Source: Paludibacteraceae bacterium (lineage in GTDB: Bacteria > Bacteroidota > Bacteroidia > Bacteroidales > Paludibacteraceae). Taken from it: a DNA stretch of 64,000 nt. Positions 1 to 30,131 of this stretch are shown here, in pieces. The stretch's first letter is position 1; each line of letters opens with the position of its first letter. Location: contig JAKSKV010000011.1 in assembly GCA_024401555.1 (NCBI GenBank), forward strand, positions 20,277-84,276. Reading direction: 5' to 3'. The notes beneath the pieces were generated by a model that saw only the letters and a program-made list of their open reading frames with translations, searched no databases and was not told the origin of the DNA. Position numbers and translations under genes: made by a program.

Positions 1-134
1 TTTACACTATTAAGCGCAGAAAAATGCAGTGACATTACATTTTCCGCACTTATTTGTGCAAATATGTAAATTTCTATTGAAAAATTTCGTGCATTCTAAG
101 ACAGGTCGCCGATAGGGAAACCAGTCTGCTCTAT

Positions 135-931
135 GTTGTGAATTGCTTTCAAATTCAATATCTTTGAGGATCAACAACAGTGCACTTAAAAAATAAGTAG
201 TCATGAAGAGAGTTGTGAATTGCTTTCAAATTCAATATCTTTGAGGATCAACAACAGTTTGGAGTCATATATGCTGTTAACGTCCAATGTTGTGAATCGC
301 TTTCAAATTCAATATCTTTGAGGATCAACAACAGTTACGATGCCGAGGGCGCCGTTCTTAAATGCGTTGTGAATCGCTTTCAAATTCAATATCTTTGAGG
401 ATCAACAACAGTTATCTTCTTCTTACTTCTATTTCAACCATAGTTGTGAATCGCTTTCAAATTCAATATCTTTGAGGATCAACAACAGTGGACTATTCGG
501 AAAAATGGACTGCAAAGAGTTGTGAATCGCTTTCAAATTCAATATCTTTGAGGTTCAACAACAGTAAATCAATACATTATGTATGTTTTTCAATGGTTGT
601 GAATCGCTTTCAAATTCAATATCTTTGAGGATCAACAACAGTTGCAGTAGGTTTCAACAGAGCTTCAGACAAGTTGTGAATCGCTTTCAAATTCAATATC
701 TTTGAGGATCAACAACAGTGGACAATACATACCTTATCCTGATCAAGGAGTTGTGAATTGCTTTCAAATTCAATATCTTTGAGGACCAACAACAGTAGAA
801 AAGGCTTTGTGCGGTTATCGTACAAAGTTGTGAATTGCTTTCAAATTCAATATCTTTGAGGACCAACAACAGTGGCGTGTACGATCAATTGATTGACGAG
901 AAGGTTGTGAATTGCTTTCAAATTCAATATC
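135..931 (+). CRISPR. Type II-C CRISPR array, 10 full repeats plus one truncated repeat
   Basis: Ten 47-nt repeats start at 135, 212, 289, 366, 443, 519, 596, 673, 750 and 827. They separate ten spacers of 30 nt (29 nt for 490-518). An eleventh repeat at 904-931 stops after 28 nt. Each repeat begins GTTGTGAAT and ends CAACAACAGT; length and sequence match Bacteroidota II-C repeats. Repeat orientation is fixed by the tracrRNA anti-repeat at 5602-5621, so crRNAs are read on the + strand, opposite to cas9. Repeats 3-8 have C at position 10 where 1, 2 and 9-11 have T. Repeat 6 has a T at position 36 in place of A, and repeats 9-10 have C at position 37. No convincing repeat precedes 135. Confidence 0.97.
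136..166 (+). promoter_or_regulatory. Promoter inside CRISPR repeat 1 (present in all ten full repeats)
   Basis: Within each full repeat, TTG at repeat positions 2-4 and TATCTTTG at positions 25-32 are 20 nt apart. This fits the Bacteroidota promoter (TTG, 19-21 nt, TAnnTTTG) exactly. Transcription would start near repeat position 36-39, about ten nt before the spacer. The T/C and A/T variants between repeats lie outside both boxes. The truncated repeat at 904-931 has lost the TTTG. Promoters inside repeats are known for Neisseria and Campylobacter II-C arrays; activity here is inferred. Confidence 0.55.
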
Positions 932-1185
932 ATACAGTTTTCGTCACACGATACCACGGCGCACTCATTTTCAAGCAAAGCGGACAGCAGTCCAGAAGTG
1001 ATGGTGATCTGTTTATTATCAAGAATCACGAAACCAATATCCTCTATCGGACGAGTAACAACGGCGTCATCTTTCGTGTGTTGCGGCATATCACTCTTAT
1101 CCACCTCTGGGAGGCGGATAACCATCTGTTTATTGCGAAGTGACAAATACGCAGCAGTGGTGAAACATAGAGTTTTCTTGATCAT
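932..1185 (-). pseudogene. cas1: cas1, N-terminal 85 codons only, truncated by a CRISPR repeat
   Basis: Reading from ATG at 1183-1185, the product starts MIKKTLCFTTAAYLSLRNKQ and continues with RPIEDIGFVILDNKQITITS and ALLENECAVVSCDEN. These are the conserved N-terminal features of type II Cas1. A full Cas1 is about 300 residues and carries its metal-binding Glu/His/Asp further on, in the missing part. At position 931 the coding sequence runs directly into a reversed CRISPR repeat; the frame stays open to 847, but those residues are repeat and spacer translation. It starts 61 nt after the cas9 stop, the normal cas9-cas1 order. No cas2 is present. The product cannot be an active integrase. Confidence 0.9.
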
Positions 1186-1246
1186 AGTAGCAATTTATGA
1201 TTATACTGATAGTAGCGACACCTTTGAGGCACCACTACTAAAATGT

Positions 1247-4200
1247 CTAATATTCCCCAACACCAACAATTTGTCCGATGTGGTTTACACGGACTTTAAC
1301 AATACAATTTACAAAATTGATGTTTTTAAATTGCTTGTATGTAATGTCTTTAATATCGTGGGTTACAGACGTCTCTAAATGATGACGAAAAACATAATCT
1401 CTTACAGCACTATTCCCATAAACAACTTTTGACATTGTTTGTACTCTGTAAATGTTTTGACTTATTTGATTATAAATTGACGGATCCATCAAATCTACCT
1501 CCTTGGGGTTAAACCCTGTCTTCTCATTAGGGAACACAAAATATTCATTTTGTTTCATAGTGAATAAGAAATGCCATCCATCGTCTTGTCTGTATTCCTT
1601 GTCTATGATTGGTAACCCCATACATTTTCGTATTGTCGCCTCAAAGAAAGAAACTGGGCAGTCTTGTATATTACCCTCTTTATCACGATAGATCGCAACA
1701 TGGTGATTATTGTTAGTACTTACATAATCAGACGGGATTCGTTGACCGTTTTCATCAATGATTATATTGCCAAATTTATCTCTCTTTTCTCGAAGAGAGA
1801 CAACATTACTTTTGCCTTTAATTGTAACACGCTTAATAGCAATCCCTTTTTCTTTATTTAAATAAATTGGATTATTCTCAATATCTGCAAATGCCTTCTT
1901 TGCATCGTTCCCATATTCTTTCAAACGCGCTACAAGAACCTCACGTACTTTGGGGTCTATTATCTTATCTACTTTTAAATCCGGAGTGATTTTTTCTCGA
2001 ATGGTATATTGAACAGCAGGATATAAAACAGTCACTTTGGCAGGCACACAATTGGCATGAATGTCTCCATCTAACCAAATTGGATTTTTATCCAAAGCGT
2101 TTTTACCCGTGAAGGCTTTCTTGGCATCTCCATTAAACTCCGCAAGTCGTTTTGCCAATGCTTCGCGGTAAATCTTCTTGGAAACCATTGAGATGTGTTC
2201 CGCATCAAAAGAGCCACCTACTTTTTCTTCCTTGGTTTCAAAAAAGTTGAGTCGACCATATACCTTCTCGTTATGCAACTGACCTCTAGGCGTTTGTGTT
2301 ACTTGACCTCTAACTAGTCTCTTTTCTCCAGATGCGGTCACTACTTCTGTAACCTTTTTGTTTCTTGCCTTGTTAACATTTTTAGTGGTTACCTTATTCT
2401 TCGCCTTTATTGATACGAGAATGTTCTCCAAATGTTTTTTTGCCTCTTTTCTAAATTGATCAAGGGGCATAGGTGGTATAAATAGAAGCCTTCCTTTCTC
2501 ATTGCGATACAGTTCTTTTCTTTCGATACCATACACAGCACTCGTTCTTTCTGATTTGCTTAGTTTGCTGAAATCATACTCCGACAAATCTATGTAATCA
2601 TCAATGCCTTTTCCTACTCGAGCATTTAGATTATTGAGATACTGAATGTAACTACGTTTGGTAAAAGCAATAGTCAACGCATCCATGGCGTGATGGCGAT
2701 GGTCATTTCTTTTTGTCCAATCTTTGATACGACTAATTGTCCGACCATCTTTGTCTTTGAAGTATTCCACCATACCTAATGCCTCATATTTCTCCCAATT
2801 AAGTTCTTTCATAACATCAACCAATTGCCAATCCTCTCGCAATCTATCTGTAACAGAACCTGTAGTCGCCACAACAGACCGGACAAGGGTTCCTAGAATC
2901 TCCTGAGCTTTTTTCGATATGTATTGAGAGTCACGAAGGTCGCGATTGATGAAGTCATTAGGAATTTCAGACTCTGTCATCAAGAGTTTGTTTCGTTTCG
3001 CCTTACTGATTTGTCCATCTTTGAACAACTTTTCAATACGGTTTTTGTATTCTTCAACCCCACTCTCCCCATATTCTGCTTGCACAAAATCTAATGCTGT
3101 AGCATTGCTCTTTTTGAGGTTTACCGACCTTACCTCTAAGGTCTTATTTGAGAAAGAATCGTCAAACAATTTTGCTTGAGGGATAATATGCTCAATATCA
3201 AACTCCTTGCTGAAGATTTTTTCTTCAGGAATGTAGGTGTTTGAGTATAACGTTTTGAATCCATTTGAAGCAAGTTCTAAATACAATTTGTAACGAATAA
3301 TATCGTTTCGACTCACATTTTCAATGCCAAATTTCCTTGTAATTTCCTCTTTCAACTTTCCATGCAATCGTGTAGTCGCTTCGACATTTGCAGTCATTTC
3401 ACTTCTTTCTTTCGCACTTTTCTTTAGCTCACGCGCCAACTCAATTCGAATTTCATCAGGTCTTCCATAAGTTTCAACCACTCCATTCACAACATGAATC
3501 ATTTGGTTGATAATCTTCTCTACCACTGGGTTGCGTAAACTATTCTTCGGAAGGACATCCAACCTGTCTTTCAAAACTTTATTGTCAATCTCCTCTTTTG
3601 TGAGAGATTGCTTCGAATGTCTATAACCCGCATATTCACAAGCTACACTATATTCATTGCCTTCTTGTAAGTATGGCAATATTTTACGGATAGCCTTAGT
3701 GCTAAGATTTCCGTAATCCTCTTGAAACACAACATTGGCTATTATTCGCGCATATTCCTCCGGCATGTTAGTAATCTCACTAACTTTAGAAACAAGGCTT
3801 TGATCCCCTGTCGCAGAATTGTCTCCTTCATATGAGTATAGAAGATGCCACAATCGGAACATAGGTTGTTGTTCAAATTCAGAAACAGACAACTTAGAAT
3901 CATAGTCAAATGCGATAAAATCGGTTTTAAACCCTTCCGTTTCGAAAATTTGTTTCACGATAGAAAGATTCTCTTCCGCATTTCCTTTGGAGAAATCAAC
4001 GTTATTGTGTCCACTTGTCTCAACAATAGCAGCATACGCCTTAAAGAGTTCCGCTTGAGTACGATTACCTTCTATTTGTTTAAAATTCAGCTCTAATGAT
4101 TTATCATCACCGAACAATAATTTCAACACTTCGCTGGCAGATAGTTTTTCCTTAACACGAAGTTCTTTTATTAAAAGCTCTTTTTCTTCTGGGAACAAGT

Positions 4201-5539
4201 ATCTTCCCGACTCAAAATCCACAAACTTATCTGTGCGTTTGATTTTCCTCTTATTGTCACTAAATTTAACAGTAATATTGTTCAGCACCTGCCAAGTTTT
4301 GAATTCCTGAAATAGAGGAGAGGATTTAGGACACACGTGTGGACCAATAAGCTTTTTCTTAATTTTACCATCGCACTCTATTTCCACTTCCCTACCCTCT
4401 AATTCACAAATTGATATCAACCCCTTTTGCGATTTCAATCTCCTTTGATGGAAAATGATATAGTCTCGTACTTCATGTTTCAGTTCATCAGTAAGTTCTT
4501 TGTGAAACTTAGCTTGTGTTTCCCAAATCCTCTCAAATTCATCCATGTAATCTTGCCTGTAAAAAACTTGGTTTTTCAAACTGAAATGAGGGTTCTTTTC
4601 TAGTTCAGACATCTGATACTGACCTACGGTTTGATTGTTAAAATACAGCACCTTACTACGGTCACTAATACCTCCCAAATAACCACTCGAACCAGAAATT
4701 TGCCCATTGATTTCCTGAAGTACAACAGCCAATTCTTCTAATCCGATTTGTTCGGTCAGGGCATTGCATCTCCACTTATACGTCTCAATCTTTTGATCGA
4801 GGCCTTTAGTAGTCCGTTTCACACCAACGATTTTGAAAGGATCTTTCAAAATGCCCCATGTTTGGCTTTTATTTTTTCCAACCGTTTTTTCTTTTACCTC
4901 ATCAGTCATCTGAGCAGGATAGAAACACTTCTGCACTTGCCATATTTTATCAAATTCCTTCTGCAAATCAGAGCGATAGAAGTCTGGGATCGCAAATTTT
5001 CCTCGCAAGAGACGATTGTACACGAACTGTCCAGGCGTAAGATTTCGATCACACATCTCTATTGCAATTTTCATACCATCAATCAGTTGACCATCTTCCG
5101 TACCTTTGACTTTTCGACTACTTTTATAACCTCGCTTTTTATTGATTTGCAAAAGTATTCTAGCGAATTGCGCTAAAGACACCTCTTCTTCAACCGCTTT
5201 AGCCCTAAGGCGATACGTTTCGAAGGTAGTCGCATTCCCGTTCTCAGTTAGAATACTGTCATCAGAAATAATATTAGATCTTTTCATCGCATCAATCAAA
5301 TGCTCTCTACGAAGTTTGTACCTCTGCAAATTTCTTCGAGCACTTCTTTTATTTGTTCTATCTGCATTTGTAGTAATGCTTTTGCCCTTTTCGAATTTTA
5401 TGCTCTCATCAACTGTCAATGGATTCACTCTAACTCCGAGTTTAATGATAGATGACGTTTCGTCTTGTTTATCTGCCTCATTTACATATGCCCAACCAAT
5501 CGAGTTGGTTCCCAAATCTAAGCCTAAGATTTTTTTCAT
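1247..5539 (-). CDS. cas9: Type II-C CRISPR-associated endonuclease Cas9
   Basis: 1430 residues, a usual length for Bacteroidota II-C Cas9. RuvC-I is ILGLDLGTNSIGWAYVN with Asp8. An arginine-rich bridge helix follows (NKRSARRNLQRYKLRREHL). RuvC-II is IRIELAREL with Glu700, the HNH nuclease is FDIEHIIPQAKLFDDSFSNK with His784, and RuvC-III is HHAMDALTIAF with Asp953. All expected catalytic residues are present and no frameshift is seen, so the enzyme should cut dsDNA guided by crRNA:tracrRNA. The start gives the canonical MKKILGLDLG. The tracrRNA gene lies divergently just upstream and the cas1 remnant 61 nt downstream. The PAM cannot be read from sequence. Confidence 0.98.
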   Translation of the reverse strand: MKKILGLDLGTNSIGWAYVNEADKQDETSSIIKLGVRVNPLTVDESIKFEKGKSITTNADRTNKRSARRNLQRYKLRREHLIDAMKRSNIISDDSILTENGNATTFETYRLRAKAVEEEVSLAQFARILLQINKKRGYKSSRKVKGTEDGQLIDGMKIAIEMCDRNLTPGQFVYNRLLRGKFAIPDFYRSDLQKEFDKIWQVQKCFYPAQMTDEVKEKTVGKNKSQTWGILKDPFKIVGVKRTTKGLDQKIETYKWRCNALTEQIGLEELAVVLQEINGQISGSSGYLGGISDRSKVLYFNNQTVGQYQMSELEKNPHFSLKNQVFYRQDYMDEFERIWETQAKFHKELTDELKHEVRDYIIFHQRRLKSQKGLISICELEGREVEIECDGKIKKKLIGPHVCPKSSPLFQEFKTWQVLNNITVKFSDNKRKIKRTDKFVDFESGRYLFPEEKELLIKELRVKEKLSASEVLKLLFGDDKSLELNFKQIEGNRTQAELFKAYAAIVETSGHNNVDFSKGNAEENLSIVKQIFETEGFKTDFIAFDYDSKLSVSEFEQQPMFRLWHLLYSYEGDNSATGDQSLVSKVSEITNMPEEYARIIANVVFQEDYGNLSTKAIRKILPYLQEGNEYSVACEYAGYRHSKQSLTKEEIDNKVLKDRLDVLPKNSLRNPVVEKIINQMIHVVNGVVETYGRPDEIRIELARELKKSAKERSEMTANVEATTRLHGKLKEEITRKFGIENVSRNDIIRYKLYLELASNGFKTLYSNTYIPEEKIFSKEFDIEHIIPQAKLFDDSFSNKTLEVRSVNLKKSNATALDFVQAEYGESGVEEYKNRIEKLFKDGQISKAKRNKLLMTESEIPNDFINRDLRDSQYISKKAQEILGTLVRSVVATTGSVTDRLREDWQLVDVMKELNWEKYEALGMVEYFKDKDGRTISRIKDWTKRNDHRHHAMDALTIAFTKRSYIQYLNNLNARVGKGIDDYIDLSEYDFSKLSKSERTSAVYGIERKELYRNEKGRLLFIPPMPLDQFRKEAKKHLENILVSIKAKNKVTTKNVNKARNKKVTEVVTASGEKRLVRGQVTQTPRGQLHNEKVYGRLNFFETKEEKVGGSFDAEHISMVSKKIYREALAKRLAEFNGDAKKAFTGKNALDKNPIWLDGDIHANCVPAKVTVLYPAVQYTIREKITPDLKVDKIIDPKVREVLVARLKEYGNDAKKAFADIENNPIYLNKEKGIAIKRVTIKGKSNVVSLREKRDKFGNIIIDENGQRIPSDYVSTNNNHHVAIYRDKEGNIQDCPVSFFEATIRKCMGLPIIDKEYRQDDGWHFLFTMKQNEYFVFPNEKTGFNPKEVDLMDPSIYNQISQNIYRVQTMSKVVYGNSAVRDYVFRHHLETSVTHDIKDITYKQFKNINFVNCIVKVRVNHIGQIVGVGEY

Positions 5540-5565
5540 GGATTTGATCTATTTTTTTTTCTTTG

Positions 5566-5597
5566 GGTGTGAATTTATCAAATTATATTTATATTTG
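5566..5597 (+). promoter_or_regulatory. tracrRNA promoter resembling a degenerate CRISPR repeat
   Basis: TATATTTG at 5590-5597 matches the TAnnTTTG box. Upstream, TGTGAATT (5568-5575) is the same 8-mer found at repeat positions 3-10. The distance from the first T of that 8-mer to the last G of the box is 30 nt in both the repeat and this region. The middle 14 nt are diverged. GTG stands where repeats have TTG. A start near 5601-5603 would place the anti-repeat at the RNA 5' end. Confidence 0.6.
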
Positions 5598-5601
5598 CAA
5601 T

Positions 5602-5680
5602 AATTTGAAAGCAATTCACAATAAGGATTATTCCGTTGTGAAAACATTTAAAGTGGCCACCTTCGGTGGTCGCTTTTTTT
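5602..5680 (+). ncRNA. tracrRNA of the type II-C system
   Basis: The anti-repeat AATTTGAAAGCAATTCACAA (5602-5621) is the exact reverse complement of repeat positions 2-21 in the T10 form of the repeat. It is followed by the nexus-like AAGGATTATTCC and GTTGTGAAAAC typical of Bacteroidota tracrRNAs, then a terminator hairpin (5653-5673) with seven Ts. Expected length is about 75-79 nt. It is transcribed away from cas9. The C10 form in repeats 3-8 would give one A:C mismatch in the duplex. Confidence 0.92.
5653..5680 (+). terminator. Rho-independent terminator of tracrRNA
   Basis: Nine-bp stem GTGGCCACC / GGTGGTCGC (two G:U pairs) with a TTC loop, followed by T5674-5680. Confidence 0.9.
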
Positions 5681-5802
5681 ATGGACAATTTTTATGGACA
5701 AACAGTAGCATTACACGCTGCAACCAGCCCTTTTAATCCACCTGTTTTTCTACCCACAAACAAAATTAGCACTCAAAATCAAAAAAAATCCTCCCAAAAG
5801 AG

Positions 5803-5832
5803 TTGCATATTCAAAATTAATCCCTACCTTTG
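5803..5832 (+). promoter_or_regulatory. Promoter of the tRNA-Leu pair
   Basis: TTG at 5803-5805, 19 nt, then TACCTTTG at 5825-5832: a full match to the Bacteroidota consensus, about 32 nt before the first tRNA. Confidence 0.75.
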
Positions 5833-5864
5833 CACCGCATTTGAGAACAATTTGTTCATTAATC

Positions 5865-5948
5865 GCCCAGATGGCGGAATCGGTAGACGCGCTGGTCTCA
5901 AACACCAGTGGATTCACTTCCATCCCGGTTCGACCCCGGGTCTGGGTA
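5865..5948 (+). tRNA. tRNA-Leu (CAA)
   Basis: 84 nt without CCA. Acceptor arms GCCCAGA and TCTGGGT close with A as discriminator. The anticodon arm is CTGGT-CTCAAAC-ACCAG, giving anticodon CAA. The long variable arm fits a class II leucine tRNA. It is the first of two identical copies 114 nt apart, probably co-transcribed. Confidence 0.96.
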
Positions 5949-5978
5949 CTCAACCTAACAAACAAATAGTTCTCATTC

Positions 5979-6062
5979 GCCCAGATGGCGGAATCGGTAG
6001 ACGCGCTGGTCTCAAACACCAGTGGATTCACTTCCATCCCGGTTCGACCCCGGGTCTGGGTA
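5979..6062 (+). tRNA. tRNA-Leu (CAA), second copy
   Basis: Identical to the copy at 5865-5948, and the repeat extends a few bases into both flanks. It is a recent tandem duplication followed directly by a terminator. Confidence 0.96.
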
Positions 6063-6066
6063 CTCA

Positions 6067-6100
6067 ACCTTCGAAGATTACTTCGGAGGTTTTCTTTTTT
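6067..6100 (+). terminator. Terminator of the tRNA-Leu operon
   Basis: Ten-bp stem (ACCTTCGAAG / CTTCGGAGGT, one G:U) with ATTA loop at 6067-6090, then a T-rich tail to 6100. Confidence 0.9.
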
Positions 6101-6193
6101 ATATTCCTTTTTCACAAGCCGCAATCCGCCTATACAAGACAATGGTCAATCAACGCATTGCCATTTGAATCGTTTTCCGCTAATAAATCGGTG

Positions 6194-6226
6194 AAAAAAA
6201 AGATGGGTAGATCAAAAGACCTACCC
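6194..6226 (-). terminator. Probable terminator of the hybrid two-component gene
   Basis: Inverted repeat with arms GGGTAG (6205-6210) and CTACCC (6221-6226), extended with one mismatch. On the minus strand it is followed by a run of Ts (A6194-6201). It lies about 240 nt downstream of the gene ending at 6469; nothing else was recognised between them. Confidence 0.7.
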
Positions 6227-6468
6227 AATTTCGCAAAGCTTACACAAATACACTCAGATAATGTTCACGTCTCAGTTCAGAATTAAACCATTATTACACT
6301 TTATCAATAATCGTTCTGTCATTGACGTTACAAAGGTAATGCATTTTACCGAACAGAAAACACCTTGAGACGGAAATATTTCAAAAAAATTCTTAAAACT
6401 TCGCACTATCTACCGGACAAAGCCCCGTTAATCGCAATATGTTTGACAATCATCAAAACACCACGCTA

Positions 6469-9400
6469 TTACGACTCCTGGGAAGGTGGATAGCCAAACT
6501 CCGCTCTATACTTCCTGCTAAAGTAGAGAGGATCGTTGAATCCGACGGAATAGGCCACATCGGAAACGCTTCGTCCCTCTCTCAACATTTTCTGGGCACG
6601 GTGAAGCCTAAACTCCGTGATGATCTCCAGAGGAGTCTTATCCGTAATCGATTTCAGCTTACGGGAGAGAGAGGATTTACTCATCGCCAATTCATCCGCA
6701 ATATCATCAATGGAGAATTCAGAATCCTGATAACGCTTCTCCACCACCTGCAAAACACCCCGCAACAGATCGTTCGCCTCCTCATCGATGCGATCCTCCT
6801 CGAAATTACGTGTCAACACCTGCTGTTGCTGCGTTCTACGCCACTGCAATATATTGTGCAACTTCATCAGCAACTCCTTGGCGGAGAATGGTTTGGTGAC
6901 ATAATCGATCGCACCACTCGACAGGCCTCGCAATCTGTCATCCTCATCACTACGAGCGGAGAGGAAGACCAATGGCACATGCATAGTCGGCTGTTCGCTG
7001 CGCAGACGTTTATACATCTCAATACCATCCACAACTGGCATCTCTACATCGGAGATGATGATATCAGGGCGGCTCTCCTTCACGACACGCAAGCCCTCCT
7101 CTCCATTGGATGCCGACACCACATTCACATAAGGTTTCAGCATCTCACAGAGATTGTTCAATATCAACGGATCGTCGTCAACCACCATCACCGTATTACC
7201 ATCCAACAACTCCGCATTTACCTCAAATGTCTCTGACGAGGCCTTTGCTGGAGCAGAGATCTCAGCCAACTCATCCGACTTGGTCAACGAAATGACAATG
7301 GTTGTTCCCTTTCCCTCTTCGCTCTCCAACTGAATCGCACCACCACTCTTGCGGACGAAATCCTTCGTCATCTGGAAACCAAGGCCTGTGCCCTTCTCAT
7401 TGTTCGTACCCAAAGTGGATTCATGCCGTCCGTCACCCATTAGTTCCTCAACTTTCTCCTTCGTCATTCCCACGCCACTATCGGTAATGGACAATCGAAC
7501 AACAGACAACTCCTCCGAAGCGTAAATACGGATAGAGCCACCCATCGGTGTAAATTTCACCGCATTCGACAAGACATTGCGGATAGCCGTTCCTATCATG
7601 CGCCCATCGGCAAACACTTTATGTTTCACATCGGAAGTGTAATCCACGGTTATATTCTTCTCCGAGAGGACACCATTCAGAAGATCCAGAACCTCCGTCA
7701 TAATTTGGTGAAGACTCACGTGATCCATACGGCAAGCCACATCCGACTGTTTACCCCTCGCCCACTCCAAGAGTTTCACCATCACCGACTGCAAATTAAA
7801 CGCAGACAAATAGGTGTCATTCAACACCTTCCATGTGTTCGGAGAGATCTCACGTCGCTTCACAACGCCCTCCAATGCGCCCACAATAGCGAACATCGGA
7901 TTCTTCAAGTCATGTGCCACGACAGAGATCAAACGGTCCTTTTCCCGAAGCACATCCAAAAGTTCTTGGTTACGTTGTTCGATGAATTTTTGCTTCTGAC
8001 CCAATAATTGATTGCTCTCATCCAACTCCTTGGTGCGTTCAGCCACCATTTTCGACAAGAGCTCACGTTGTTTCACGATAGAACGGAATCGGTAGTAGAG
8101 CACACCGGCAACAATCGCAATAAGTCCCAACACCATCAGGAGTGTACACCACCATGTCTTCCACCAAGGCGGTAAGACACGTATGTTCAGCGTAATAATC
8201 TTCGGATCACCCACTCCGTCGCGACGCAACGCCTTCACTTCCAAGACGTAGTCTCCAAAAGGCAAGTGGGAGATCTTCACCTCTCGTTTATCCCCCAAAT
8301 CCACCCATCGGCGGTCCAAGCCATTGATTCGGTAAGAGGCATCCACAATATTCAGGCCAGAGAAATCCAATACATCAAAAGAGATGCTGATATTGGTTTC
8401 ATCATAATTCAAGACCAACTCATTCGTACGAGAAAGAGGAGCAGGCAACAGGTCGCTGCTTGGCAAAACACGCTCTCCAAATAAATAGAGATCAGAGAAA
8501 GAGAGATAGCTAACACCCGACGACTCACGCTTCAAAGTAGGATCAAAGACCATAAATCCCTCGGTGCTGCCAAAATAGAACCGTCCCTTGGAGTCTTGGA
8601 AGGCGGCACGGGAGGTGAAATAGTTGCGGTTGCGGCAACGGTCGTCCAACAAGACCTGATGATAAGTCGCACCATCATAATCGAAATAGAGGATACCATT
8701 GGATCCGCTGGTCCAAAAGTGGCCATCCCTACCCATCAAAATGGAGGAATAATGGCCCGTAGGCAAAAAATCCAACGATTTGAAAGAGGATCCATCCGCC
8801 TCGAAACGAAGGACACCCCGATTGCTCACCACAAAAAGATTACCCGCCTCGTCGCAAGCGCCCTGGAACATCATCAACGGATTGTGGGACTGCGTGGCGT
8901 CTATATCCGGATAGGTGGCCTTCATCTTGCCATTCTCCCAACGCCAAACGGTACGGGAGGTAACGATCCAACGCACGCCCTGCTTCGTTTCCATAAGATG
9001 CTCCACCCATCGGTCTTCCGAGGATATGGTGGAATCGCCTATCAACCGCACATGGTTCCAAATATTCTTCTCCTTGGAATAGCAATAGATACCATCACCC
9101 GCCAGGCCGACGCCCACTTCCCCATTCTGGAAACAGTGCAACACCTTACTGGTACTATATGCGAAACCAATTCCATTGAAAGGATACTGCGTAATCTTTC
9201 CCGTCTCCGTATCATAGGTGCAAGGAACTCCACCCCAAGAGGCTACCCATATCTTTCCATCGACACCCTTCTGTAACGACAAGACATTGTTACTTGTCAA
9301 ACCGTCCTCCGTCTGGATATGTTTCAACAATTTCAGATCGGGAGAGAGCAGATAACAGCCATGTCCATCCGCGCTGACCACGATATTTCCTCGACTATCC

Positions 9401-10470
9401 TCCGCGAAAGAGGTTCCATCCACCAAAGGAAATCCGATATCGGACGAGTGCAGAGAACTGGACTCTTTCGACTCGCCATATCGCCACAAACCTGAATTCT
9501 GGGTACCGATCCAAATATCTCCATCACGATCTTCGAAGAGGGTATGCACCTTCTTCAACTCATCCACATTGATATTGATCGGTGCCTGTCTCTCAAAGCT
9601 CCATTTTCCAGAGTGGCACTCTCCTCGCCAAAGTCCGCTTCCGCTGGTACCCAACCAAATCCTTCCCTTCGAATCCTTGAGGATGGCGGTGATGCACTTG
9701 AAAGGCGTTTCGATCTTTTCCGCACGAAGGATGACACCATCGTCACCGATATGCACGACGCCCAAGGAGCCGATACTGGAAGATATCAATATGCGGTTGT
9801 GGTCCAAACGGACCATCGAGGAGACCATCTCATTGATTTCCGAGAGAAATGTGGGGCCACATCGTTTGAAATCCTTATCCCACACACGGACACCGGGAAA
9901 AGAGCCAATCCATATCCGCCCCCAGTCATCCTCCAACAAGCTACAAGTAAAGATGTCTTGGGTGGCTTGGTATGCGATAGGATTCTTGTCGAAGCGACCG
10001 TTCTCCTTATCGAGCAGATAAAGCCCCGCATTGGTGGAGAGAATCGTTCTACCACCACTGATTGGATAGATTCCCGTCACACATTTGTAGTAAGTGGAGT
10101 CAAAATCCTTGGGCGCCAAATTATGGAATGAATCGGTCATCTCATCATAAGAGACCGCCATTCCGTTGTTACTTCCGAAACAGACCGTGCCATCTTCCAA
10201 AGTGACGGAACGGACGATATCGTTTCGGAACAGTGAAGGATAATCCTCGAAAAAATAGTTCTTGAAATGGACACCGTCGAACTTATTCAAACCATACTCG
10301 GTGGCCACCCATAGGAAGCCATTCTTGTCTTGAGAAATGGAATGGACATAGTTACAGCTCAGGCCATCCTTCACCGTATAATGGTGGAACGAGGCCCACT
10401 CCATTGCCCTTAACGGAGAAAAAGCAAGCAGGAAAACAACTATATATCTTAAAACCCTAATAGAAAACAT
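6469..10470 (-). CDS. Hybrid two-component system regulator (HTCS)
   Basis: About 1333 residues from the chosen Met (MFSIRVLRYIVVFLLAF), which gives a clean signal peptide; an upstream in-frame Met at 10521 gives a poorer N-terminus. Order: periplasmic two-bladed Reg_prop propellers (to about 690), a Y_Y_Y domain, a membrane helix near 770, HisKA with VVAHDLKNP near 850, HATPase with NVLSNAVKFTP near 968, a receiver with VVDDDP near 1097 and phospho-acceptor Asp near 1139 (IISDVEMP), and a C-terminal AraC-type HTH. Such proteins sense glycans and switch on polysaccharide utilisation loci in one polypeptide. No SusC/SusD pair or glycanase cluster lies next to it, so its target cannot be read from context. 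Confidence 0.95.
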   Translation of the reverse strand: MFSIRVLRYIVVFLLAFSPLRAMEWASFHHYTVKDGLSCNYVHSISQDKNGFLWVATEYGLNKFDGVHFKNYFFEDYPSLFRNDIVRSVTLEDGTVCFGSNNGMAVSYDEMTDSFHNLAPKDFDSTYYKCVTGIYPISGGRTILSTNAGLYLLDKENGRFDKNPIAYQATQDIFTCSLLEDDWGRIWIGSFPGVRVWDKDFKRCGPTFLSEINEMVSSMVRLDHNRILISSSIGSLGVVHIGDDGVILRAEKIETPFKCITAILKDSKGRIWLGTSGSGLWRGECHSGKWSFERQAPININVDELKKVHTLFEDRDGDIWIGTQNSGLWRYGESKESSSLHSSDIGFPLVDGTSFAEDSRGNIVVSADGHGCYLLSPDLKLLKHIQTEDGLTSNNVLSLQKGVDGKIWVASWGGVPCTYDTETGKITQYPFNGIGFAYSTSKVLHCFQNGEVGVGLAGDGIYCYSKEKNIWNHVRLIGDSTISSEDRWVEHLMETKQGVRWIVTSRTVWRWENGKMKATYPDIDATQSHNPLMMFQGACDEAGNLFVVSNRGVLRFEADGSSFKSLDFLPTGHYSSILMGRDGHFWTSGSNGILYFDYDGATYHQVLLDDRCRNRNYFTSRAAFQDSKGRFYFGSTEGFMVFDPTLKRESSGVSYLSFSDLYLFGERVLPSSDLLPAPLSRTNELVLNYDETNISISFDVLDFSGLNIVDASYRINGLDRRWVDLGDKREVKISHLPFGDYVLEVKALRRDGVGDPKIITLNIRVLPPWWKTWWCTLLMVLGLIAIVAGVLYYRFRSIVKQRELLSKMVAERTKELDESNQLLGQKQKFIEQRNQELLDVLREKDRLISVVAHDLKNPMFAIVGALEGVVKRREISPNTWKVLNDTYLSAFNLQSVMVKLLEWARGKQSDVACRMDHVSLHQIMTEVLDLLNGVLSEKNITVDYTSDVKHKVFADGRMIGTAIRNVLSNAVKFTPMGGSIRIYASEELSVVRLSITDSGVGMTKEKVEELMGDGRHESTLGTNNEKGTGLGFQMTKDFVRKSGGAIQLESEEGKGTTIVISLTKSDELAEISAPAKASSETFEVNAELLDGNTVMVVDDDPLILNNLCEMLKPYVNVVSASNGEEGLRVVKESRPDIIISDVEMPVVDGIEMYKRLRSEQPTMHVPLVFLSARSDEDDRLRGLSSGAIDYVTKPFSAKELLMKLHNILQWRRTQQQQVLTRNFEEDRIDEEANDLLRGVLQVVEKRYQDSEFSIDDIADELAMSKSSLSRKLKSITDKTPLEIITEFRLHRAQKMLREGRSVSDVAYSVGFNDPLYFSRKYRAEFGYPPSQES

Positions 10471-29195: not shown

Positions 29196-29348
29196 TTTGG
29201 ACAACTGCTTTTCTCAATTGCGATGCAAAGATAGACATAAATTTGAACATTGCAAACACTCCGTCTCTTTTTTTTCAAAAAATGCAATTTTTAAACAGAC
29301 GCATCGTTATATTGATAACGAGGCAAGCCCCTAAAAACAGACAAAGAG

Positions 29349-30131
29349 ATGGAACTAATTGATACACATTCACACCTTTACGAGCCAGAATTTGACGAAG
29401 ACAGGAAGGAGGCTATCGACCGCCTTGCGGAGAAATCGGTCAATGAAGTTTATCTTCCCAACATCGACAGCGAGAGCATCGACCGCCTCTTGCAACTCCA
29501 TCACTCGGACAAGGAGAAATTTCACATTATGATGGGGCTCCACCCCACCAGCGTCAAGGACAATTTCCAATCGGAATTAGAGATAATTCGTCAACGATTC
29601 TCCGGAGAAGAGATCTGCGGCATCGGAGAGGTAGGCATAGATCTCTACTGGGACAAAGAGTTCCTCGACCAACAAACCGCCGCATTCGAGACACAAATCG
29701 ACTGGGCACTATCGATGGATCTTCCCCTCATCATCCACACGCGTAAAGCATTCGAAGAGACATTCCGTTCTATCAAGAAGTTCAAAGGGAAACCCTTGAG
29801 AGGTATCTTCCACTGCTACTCCGGCTCCAAAGAGATTGCGGAGGAGATCTTCAAATTGGGAGACTTTTCCTTAGGCATCGGAGGCGTTCTGACATTTAAG
29901 AACGCAGGATTAGCCGAGGTTGTGACGGATATCCCATTGGAGAAATTGGTGTTGGAGACCGATTGTCCCTATCTCACGCCCGCCCCTTTCAGGGGACAGC
30001 GAAACGAATCTTCCTACGTTTACTATGTGGCAGAGAAGTTGGCGGCTCTCAAAGAGACCTCAATCGAGAAAGTGGCGGAAATCACCACAGGAAACGCCAA
30101 GAAGATTTTCAGCGTAAAGCACACGGTTTAA
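29349..30131 (+). CDS. tatD: TatD family metal-dependent hydrolase
   Basis: 260 residues. IDTHSHLYEPEFDEDR carries the metal-binding HxH. CGIGEVGIDLYWDKEF, LPLIIHTRKAFEET, GIFHCYSGSKEIAEEI and KLVLETDCPYLTPAPFRGQR complete the family pattern. It is a cytosolic TIM-barrel nuclease/hydrolase linked to DNA repair. No partner gene is coupled to it; a promoter follows before the next gene. Confidence 0.95.
   Translation: MELIDTHSHLYEPEFDEDRKEAIDRLAEKSVNEVYLPNIDSESIDRLLQLHHSDKEKFHIMMGLHPTSVKDNFQSELEIIRQRFSGEEICGIGEVGIDLYWDKEFLDQQTAAFETQIDWALSMDLPLIIHTRKAFEETFRSIKKFKGKPLRGIFHCYSGSKEIAEEIFKLGDFSLGIGGVLTFKNAGLAEVVTDIPLEKLVLETDCPYLTPAPFRGQRNESSYVYYVAEKLAALKETSIEKVAEITTGNAKKIFSVKHTV

Follow-up and report, generated by a model that had tools for sequence, protein, structure and literature searches.

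Comparison with described systems

The type II-C CRISPR-Cas locus (clustered regularly interspaced short palindromic repeats, with their associated genes) of Riemerella anatipestifer is close in plan to the one considered here, which lies in a stretch of 64,000 nucleotides from a Paludibacteraceae bacterium (assembly GCA_024401555.1). This whole stretch, hereafter the window, covers bases 20277-84276 of contig C13 (JAKSKV010000011.1), which starts 20 kb further left; the genome (G000) is a draft of 3.52 Mb in 159 contigs, with a completeness of 99.83%. In both bacteria cas9 comes first, the trans-activating CRISPR RNA (tracrRNA) is upstream of it, the repeats are of 47 nt with spacers of 30 nt or nearly so, and the array lies beyond the position of cas1 and cas2. 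In R. anatipestifer, however, cas1, cas2 and a 107-bp leader stand between cas9 and the array, whereas in the window these are mostly or wholly missing; both cas1 and cas2 are required there for new spacers (PMC6008519, PMC5006608; these papers and those below are cited from extracts of their text).

Three other Bacteroidota systems bear comparison. A II-C locus lacking cas1 has also been reported in Flavobacterium branchiophilum (PMC8092290), but the extract does not describe its anatomy, while the window shows where the break lies, that the leader has gone and what is left of the repeat. For the type I-B system of Bacteroides fragilis one deletion has been proposed, following spacer acquisition, that truncated cas1 and removed neighbouring cas genes; there cas2 remained, but the effectors cas3, cas7 and cas8 disappeared and interference with them, whereas the window keeps its effector (PMC5704556). 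The type VI-B locus of Flavobacterium columnare likewise has an effector and an array but neither cas1 nor cas2, and its array is written by the Cas1 of another locus (PMC8092290); for the window neither a matching integrase nor a leader was found.

In the window cas1 breaks off inside a repeat, and we consider it likely that a single deletion turned a II-C locus into one that is frozen and limited to interference. Our literature search found, in the extracts it returned, no description of a II-C deletion leading from cas1 into a repeat. This is a natural case of an already known kind of event and no new system, adaptation-deficient loci being already in print.

The join between cas1 and the repeat

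The features on which the argument rests are the following.

1..134, plus strand: flank past the oldest end of the array (5' end in the sense of the CRISPR RNA, crRNA), without leader-like conservation
135..873, plus strand: ten complete 47-nt repeats (R1-R10) with spacers S1-S9 between them
797..826, plus strand: spacer S9
874..903, plus strand: spacer S10, the final spacer ahead of the join
904..931, plus strand: repeat stump R11, nucleotides 1-28 of 47
931..1185, minus strand: cas1 remnant, codons 1-85, which stops short of the three catalytic residues
847..1185, minus strand: open reading frame (ORF) of 112 amino acids, made of the 85 cas1 codons and then the antisense of R11, S10 and R10

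The complete repeats start at 135, 212, 289, 366, 443, 519, 596, 673, 750 and 827 on the plus strand, and each of the ten spacers has 29-30 nt. An eleventh repeat, starting at 904, matches over exactly 28 nt (904-931), and at 931 these give way to 85 codons of a type II cas1. Base 931 fits both sides, as it is the last position to match the repeat and also, read on the minus strand, the G in codon 85; the two therefore overlap by one base. A sequence-only reading of this DNA had placed such a join at 931/932, and the repeat and ORF coordinates bear it out. The II-C repeat occurs in the genome on contig C13 only, and the join is far from a contig end, C13 extending 20 kb to the left of the window.

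The cas1 start, at 1185, lies 61 nt after the end of cas9 on the minus strand. The fragment matches the PADLOC profile Cas1_II (E value 7.7e-19) and the NCBIfam model cas1_NMENI (E 2.5e-15; 56.5 bits, under the model cut-off of 120, as expected because it is only a fragment), while Pfam at E 0.001 gave no family when the fragment was searched by itself. Its identity to the Cas1 proteins adjoining related Cas9s reaches 67%. These profile and alignment matches rule out a chance match or a misreading. The three catalytic residues that it does not reach are taken from PMC6008519. The 112-residue frame running on into the array is probably meaningless.

A join at a repeat could be a fault of assembly, the true genome having an intact cas1-cas2 at this place. 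The 159 contigs of the draft leave room for it, and arrays often break assemblies: the contigs of many relatives end in or at the array. But the single base shared at the join would offer an assembler no repeated word by which to be misled, the remainder of cas1, a cas2 or the repeat turned up on none of the other contigs in spite of the high completeness, and the gene order conserved in four congeners is matched on either outer side of the locus. We therefore regard a misassembly as quite unlikely.

The undeleted form in related loci

Related Cas9 loci were gathered by scanning contigs of the Genome Taxonomy Database (GTDB) with the window Cas9, and the best 80 of 238 confirmed candidates were kept; in three (L024, L060, L078) the contig ends at the expected place of cas1, which leaves 77 that can be judged. 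In 75 of them a full-length cas1, a closed frame of about 300 residues, directly follows cas9; the two exceptions have a frameshift (L049) or a stop (L073) in cas1, and in both cas2 follows. The array begins about 450-900 nt past the cas1 stop, with cas2 between wherever this was read, so that the usual order is cas9-cas1-cas2-leader-array. From the cas1 start to the first repeat we measured about 1.37-1.55 kb in L020, L025, L035 and L044, hence 1.1-1.3 kb is missing in the window, not counting repeats and spacers that may have gone too. As in the window, crRNA and cas genes are on opposite strands in 53 of the 55 arrays of relatives that have at least 4 identical copies of a repeat of 41-51 nt. 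Given this gene order and this orientation one deletion suffices, and both the order and the single deletion from cas1 into a repeat, as put forward from the sequence, agree with the undeleted form that exists in relatives.

The starting locus would thus have been of type II-C, with tracrRNA, cas9, cas1, cas2, leader and array in this order. One deletion, whose ends share hardly any homology, would have led from cas1 codon 85/86 to nucleotide 28 of a repeat. With it would have gone the catalytic stretch of cas1, the whole of cas2, the leader and, from at least one repeat, the portion facing the leader; more spacers may have been lost as well.

That the deletion struck the array on its leader side goes beyond what the sequence-only reading had seen. 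Of the 28 arrays with both ends inside a contig (L042, with its array before cas9, being left out), 20 have an imperfect terminal repeat at the end far from cas2, and only one, the second array of L048, has it at the near end. The 40-nt flanks of different loci, compared in pairs, have a mean identity of 0.40 on the cas2 side and of 0.27, without consensus, on the far side. The imperfect far-end repeats and the more alike near flanks designate the cas2 side as that of the leader; in II-C systems arrays are transcribed toward their variable end (PMC8092290). In three congeners with a reversed array (L114, L115, L119) the imperfect repeats are on the cas2 side, which is again the crRNA 5' end. 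The cas1 side of the window array carries no leader. As the leader lies between cas2 and the array in relatives, the window has lost the site of integration along with the integrase genes.

The array runs in the same direction as the cas genes in L114, L115, L116, L118, L119 and L128 and in the opposite one in L120, i.e. in the same direction in 6 of the 7 congener loci read, against 2 of the 55 arrays of the wider relatives (L002-L081). An inversion of the array, which the six congener loci suggested, was dropped, for 53 of the 55 wider arrays match the window and the window locus is at another site. Between their flanks L114, L115, L118 and L119 list cas9, cas1 and cas2 alone, and L116 one extra ORF; no additional locus gene was seen in the window ORF list from 1 to 10000, but such genes could have left with the deletion.

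Cas1 and Cas2 elsewhere in the genome

Pfam searches of the genome for Cas1 and for Cas2 gave one match each, side by side on contig C72. A full II-C Cas1 used as query found residues 1-89 at the window locus and, over 98 residues, a 36% match to the C72 Cas1; a II-C Cas2 query found nothing credible in this genome (a match at E 0.5 only) but a counterpart in all four congeners searched (G013, G003, G015, G010). C72 carries a type III-A-like locus, with matches to Cas10, Csm3, Csm4, Csm5 and Cas6 and with CARF nucleases (csm2 was not part of this typing), and 61 copies of a 37-nt repeat whose sequence is unlike the 47-nt repeat of the window. Thus the check proposed by the sequence-only reading, a search of the whole genome for cas1 and cas2, yielded no intact II-C pair, the only pair being that of the III-A-like locus; profile and homology searches of the draft found no second type II cas1 or cas2.

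An intact Cas1 and Cas2 nevertheless exist in the same genome, and one may ask whether they add spacers to the window array in trans, in which case the locus would not be frozen. There is a precedent in F. columnare, where the II-C Cas1 adds spacers to the VI-B array in trans (PMC8092290). We rejected the type III pair for this role on three grounds: the C72 repeats differ in length and sequence, its Cas1 has only the low identity given above to a II-C Cas1, and the window array has lost its leader and the leader-side end of its terminal repeat, a loss that weighs against any rescue in trans. Such help appears extremely improbable.

The locus has an intact effector and array and, in the draft genome, no cas1-cas2 pair of its own type, two of the marks of an adaptation-deficient (interference-only) locus; the third, that crRNA is made and target DNA cut, it would probably show as well. 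With no integrase for its repeat and no leader-repeat junction, spacer addition should now be impossible, and the earlier suggestion that the locus cannot learn stands on both the missing II-C pair and the missing leader side. Beside the cas1 of the III-A-like locus (L084:10598-12067) we noted a protein of 489 amino acids with DUF7017 and TOTE S1/CSD domains, which PADLOC labels PDC-M16B.

Parts retained for interference

The following parts matter for interference.

159..166, plus strand: TATCTTTG, nucleotides 25-32 of R1, which fits the promoter box TAnnTTTG
1247..5539, minus strand: cas9, 1430 amino acids, with RuvC and HNH motifs present
5590..5681, plus strand: predicted tracrRNA, with a TATATTTG box at 5590, an anti-repeat at about 5602-5621 and two hairpins

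Cas9 has neither a stop nor a frameshift in its 1430 codons, matches TIGR01865 at 473 bits (cut-off 100) and departs from the aligned set at 4 of the 282 columns conserved in 97% of it, the 77 relatives having a median of 3 departures (range 0-36). The last hairpin of the predicted tracrRNA is followed by a run of T, as in a terminator; no Rfam family reached its threshold within window 1-6300. The predicted tracrRNA pairs with nucleotides 1-21 of the repeat in a 21-bp duplex of -27.8 kcal/mol, and this is the same whether the repeat has its 47 nt or is cut to 28 or 22; for 200 shuffled 28-mers the mean was -10.1 and the lowest value -17.1 kcal/mol.

TAnnTTTG is known as a promoter motif of Bacteroidota (PMC10309648), and promoters inside II-C repeats have been described in Flavobacterium (PMC8092290, PMC10309648); in the extract of PMC10309648 the motif is placed before cas9, and TTG is given for the repeat. 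We found it in 48 of 50 relatives' repeats (eight further arrays being left out by hand) against 2.5 expected on shuffling, at about nucleotide 24 and nearly always starting at nucleotides 23-27, so that each II-C repeat may carry its own promoter. In the window the box TATCTTTG is kept in each of R1-R10. The stump R11 keeps the whole tracrRNA-pairing segment (nucleotides 1-21), and its promoter-like box (nucleotides 25-32) is halved. All ten spacers thus keep a promoter-like repeat before them and a pairing segment after them. The claim that Cas9, tracrRNA and ten spacers had remained intact is upheld by the open frame with its motifs, the unchanged predicted duplex and the full array. Most likely, to judge from these parts, the locus continues to yield ten crRNAs and to cut DNA that matches them; the immunity left would then be heritable but frozen.

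Spacer targets and observations that weigh against a frozen, active locus

Several observations weigh against this reading. The join rests on one draft assembly. R1, at the far end of the array, is perfect, unlike the far-end repeats of most relatives. The cas1 fragment has 6 departures at the 36 columns conserved in 80% of relatives, a number equalled by 5 of 78 of them, and is unremarkable at the columns conserved in 90% and 95%; it is only mildly unusual, so that the age of the loss cannot be read from it, and its decay was rejected as a clock for want of a clear signal. As to the spacers, six of the ten (S3, S5, S7, S8, S9, S10) were scanned as exact 22-nt patterns in IMG/VR, and none had a protospacer there; the whole array compared with phage records gave only matches at chance level (three near E 0.9) or matches of the repeat. 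Nothing therefore shows that the spacers target anything current. Finally S9 matches its own genome imperfectly, being identical to G000:C84:33016-33048 (L152:11017-11049) except for three bases inserted there.

The spacer results could be taken to mean that the whole locus is dead, i.e. that after the loss of adaptation no crRNA is made and nothing is cut, the parts being merely undecayed: six spacers scanned lack a current target, and a self-match is present. But cas9 bears no inactivating change, and its conserved columns, the pairing of the tracrRNA and the promoter-like boxes are all kept; moreover the C84 copy has the three inserted bases that a tolerated self-match might be expected to have. 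A dead locus seems to us rather unlikely, and we retain the reading of a locus that interferes without learning.

At the C84 site two ORFs are separated by a terminator-like hairpin, within what may be a phage-like element whose proteins give mostly weak profile matches. Among 358 genomes of the family the site occurs in this genome only, and IMG/VR yielded neither S9 as an exact 22-nt pattern nor a gapped S9 pattern. In its sequence the C84 copy looks as an element escaping S9 would, but one case proves nothing.

Several Riemerella phages match the window repeats, for example H1 (OR089151.1) at 29301-29492; these pieces are possibly a small phage-borne array.

Insertion site and origin

The locus amounts to a net gain of about 5.8 kb between tRNA-Leu and a gene that we take to be mannose-1-phosphate guanylyltransferase-like. 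Four congeners (G012, G003, G013, G002) have a few hundred bases at that site and not the locus; a fifth, G015, was also examined, and the stretch fetched held no tRNA. The insertion looks recent. Its G+C content is 0.35 in the array and 0.37 in cas9; elsewhere in the window it is 0.45. Most congeners keep their II-C locus at another site and in another orientation, and that usual site, beside a dxs-like gene, is empty in this genome; the window Cas9 is at most 65% identical, in the best segment, to any Cas9 found. The empty congener site, the low G+C, the empty dxs-side site and the distant Cas9 together make it probable that the locus was gained separately.

Two tandem tRNA-Leu-like copies (window 5863-6070) adjoin the inserted locus, and one or two tRNA-Leu(CAA) occur at the same place in four congeners. 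At the site shared by the congener loci L114, L115, L116, L118 and L119 the Cas9s differ widely, from 1246 to more than 1690 residues, and the first 50 residues of Cas1 are identical within the pairs L115/L116 and L114/L118; it is as if cas9 had been exchanged within an adaptation module that was kept.

Other short cas1 frames

Our survey of cas1 in 358 genomes of the family gave a match in 95 (99 rows) and nine short frames, six of which are at or near contig ends (G242, G309, G125:C125, G350, G175, G125:C114:5185). The three real ones are in the present genome, in G015 and at G125:C114:1070, and among all nine only that of the present genome joins a repeat. In G015, of the same genus, cas1 (L120, G015:C111, 5332-5832) runs through residue ~155 and then in frame into the last residues, so that the stretch bearing the three catalytic residues is absent; behind this cas1 come cas2, a gap on the leader side and the array. 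Neither the deletion nor the II-C locus is the one seen in the window, and a second congener with its own cas1 deletion suggests that the loss is not unique in the genus. The third (L124, G125:C114, 981-1372) is a cas1 remnant with a frameshift; the cas9 that comes after it has, at the end of the contig, the start of a further cas1 behind it.

Significance

One may go further and suppose that the breakpoint is not arbitrary: of the deletions that abolish adaptation, the one kept leaves every remaining spacer with its promoter and its tag and silences a last promoter that has become useless, and frozen Cas9 loci might be favoured as compact, movable, heritable immunity. We hold this to be unlikely. 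Were it true, the 5.8-kb locus at a site empty in congeners and the second, independent cas1 knock-out in the genus would both result from selection that acted against adaptation and spared interference.

The promoter-like box, found in nearly all the repeats counted, helps in reading Bacteroidota II-C arrays generally. The locus itself offers a readable natural case, for a Cas9 system, in which adaptation and interference have been separated, the integrase and its landing site being lost, it seems, at one stroke. Should the join prove common to sister strains, the ten spacers would be a fixed and datable marker, and the locus would put to the test how long a Cas9 immunity persists without updating.

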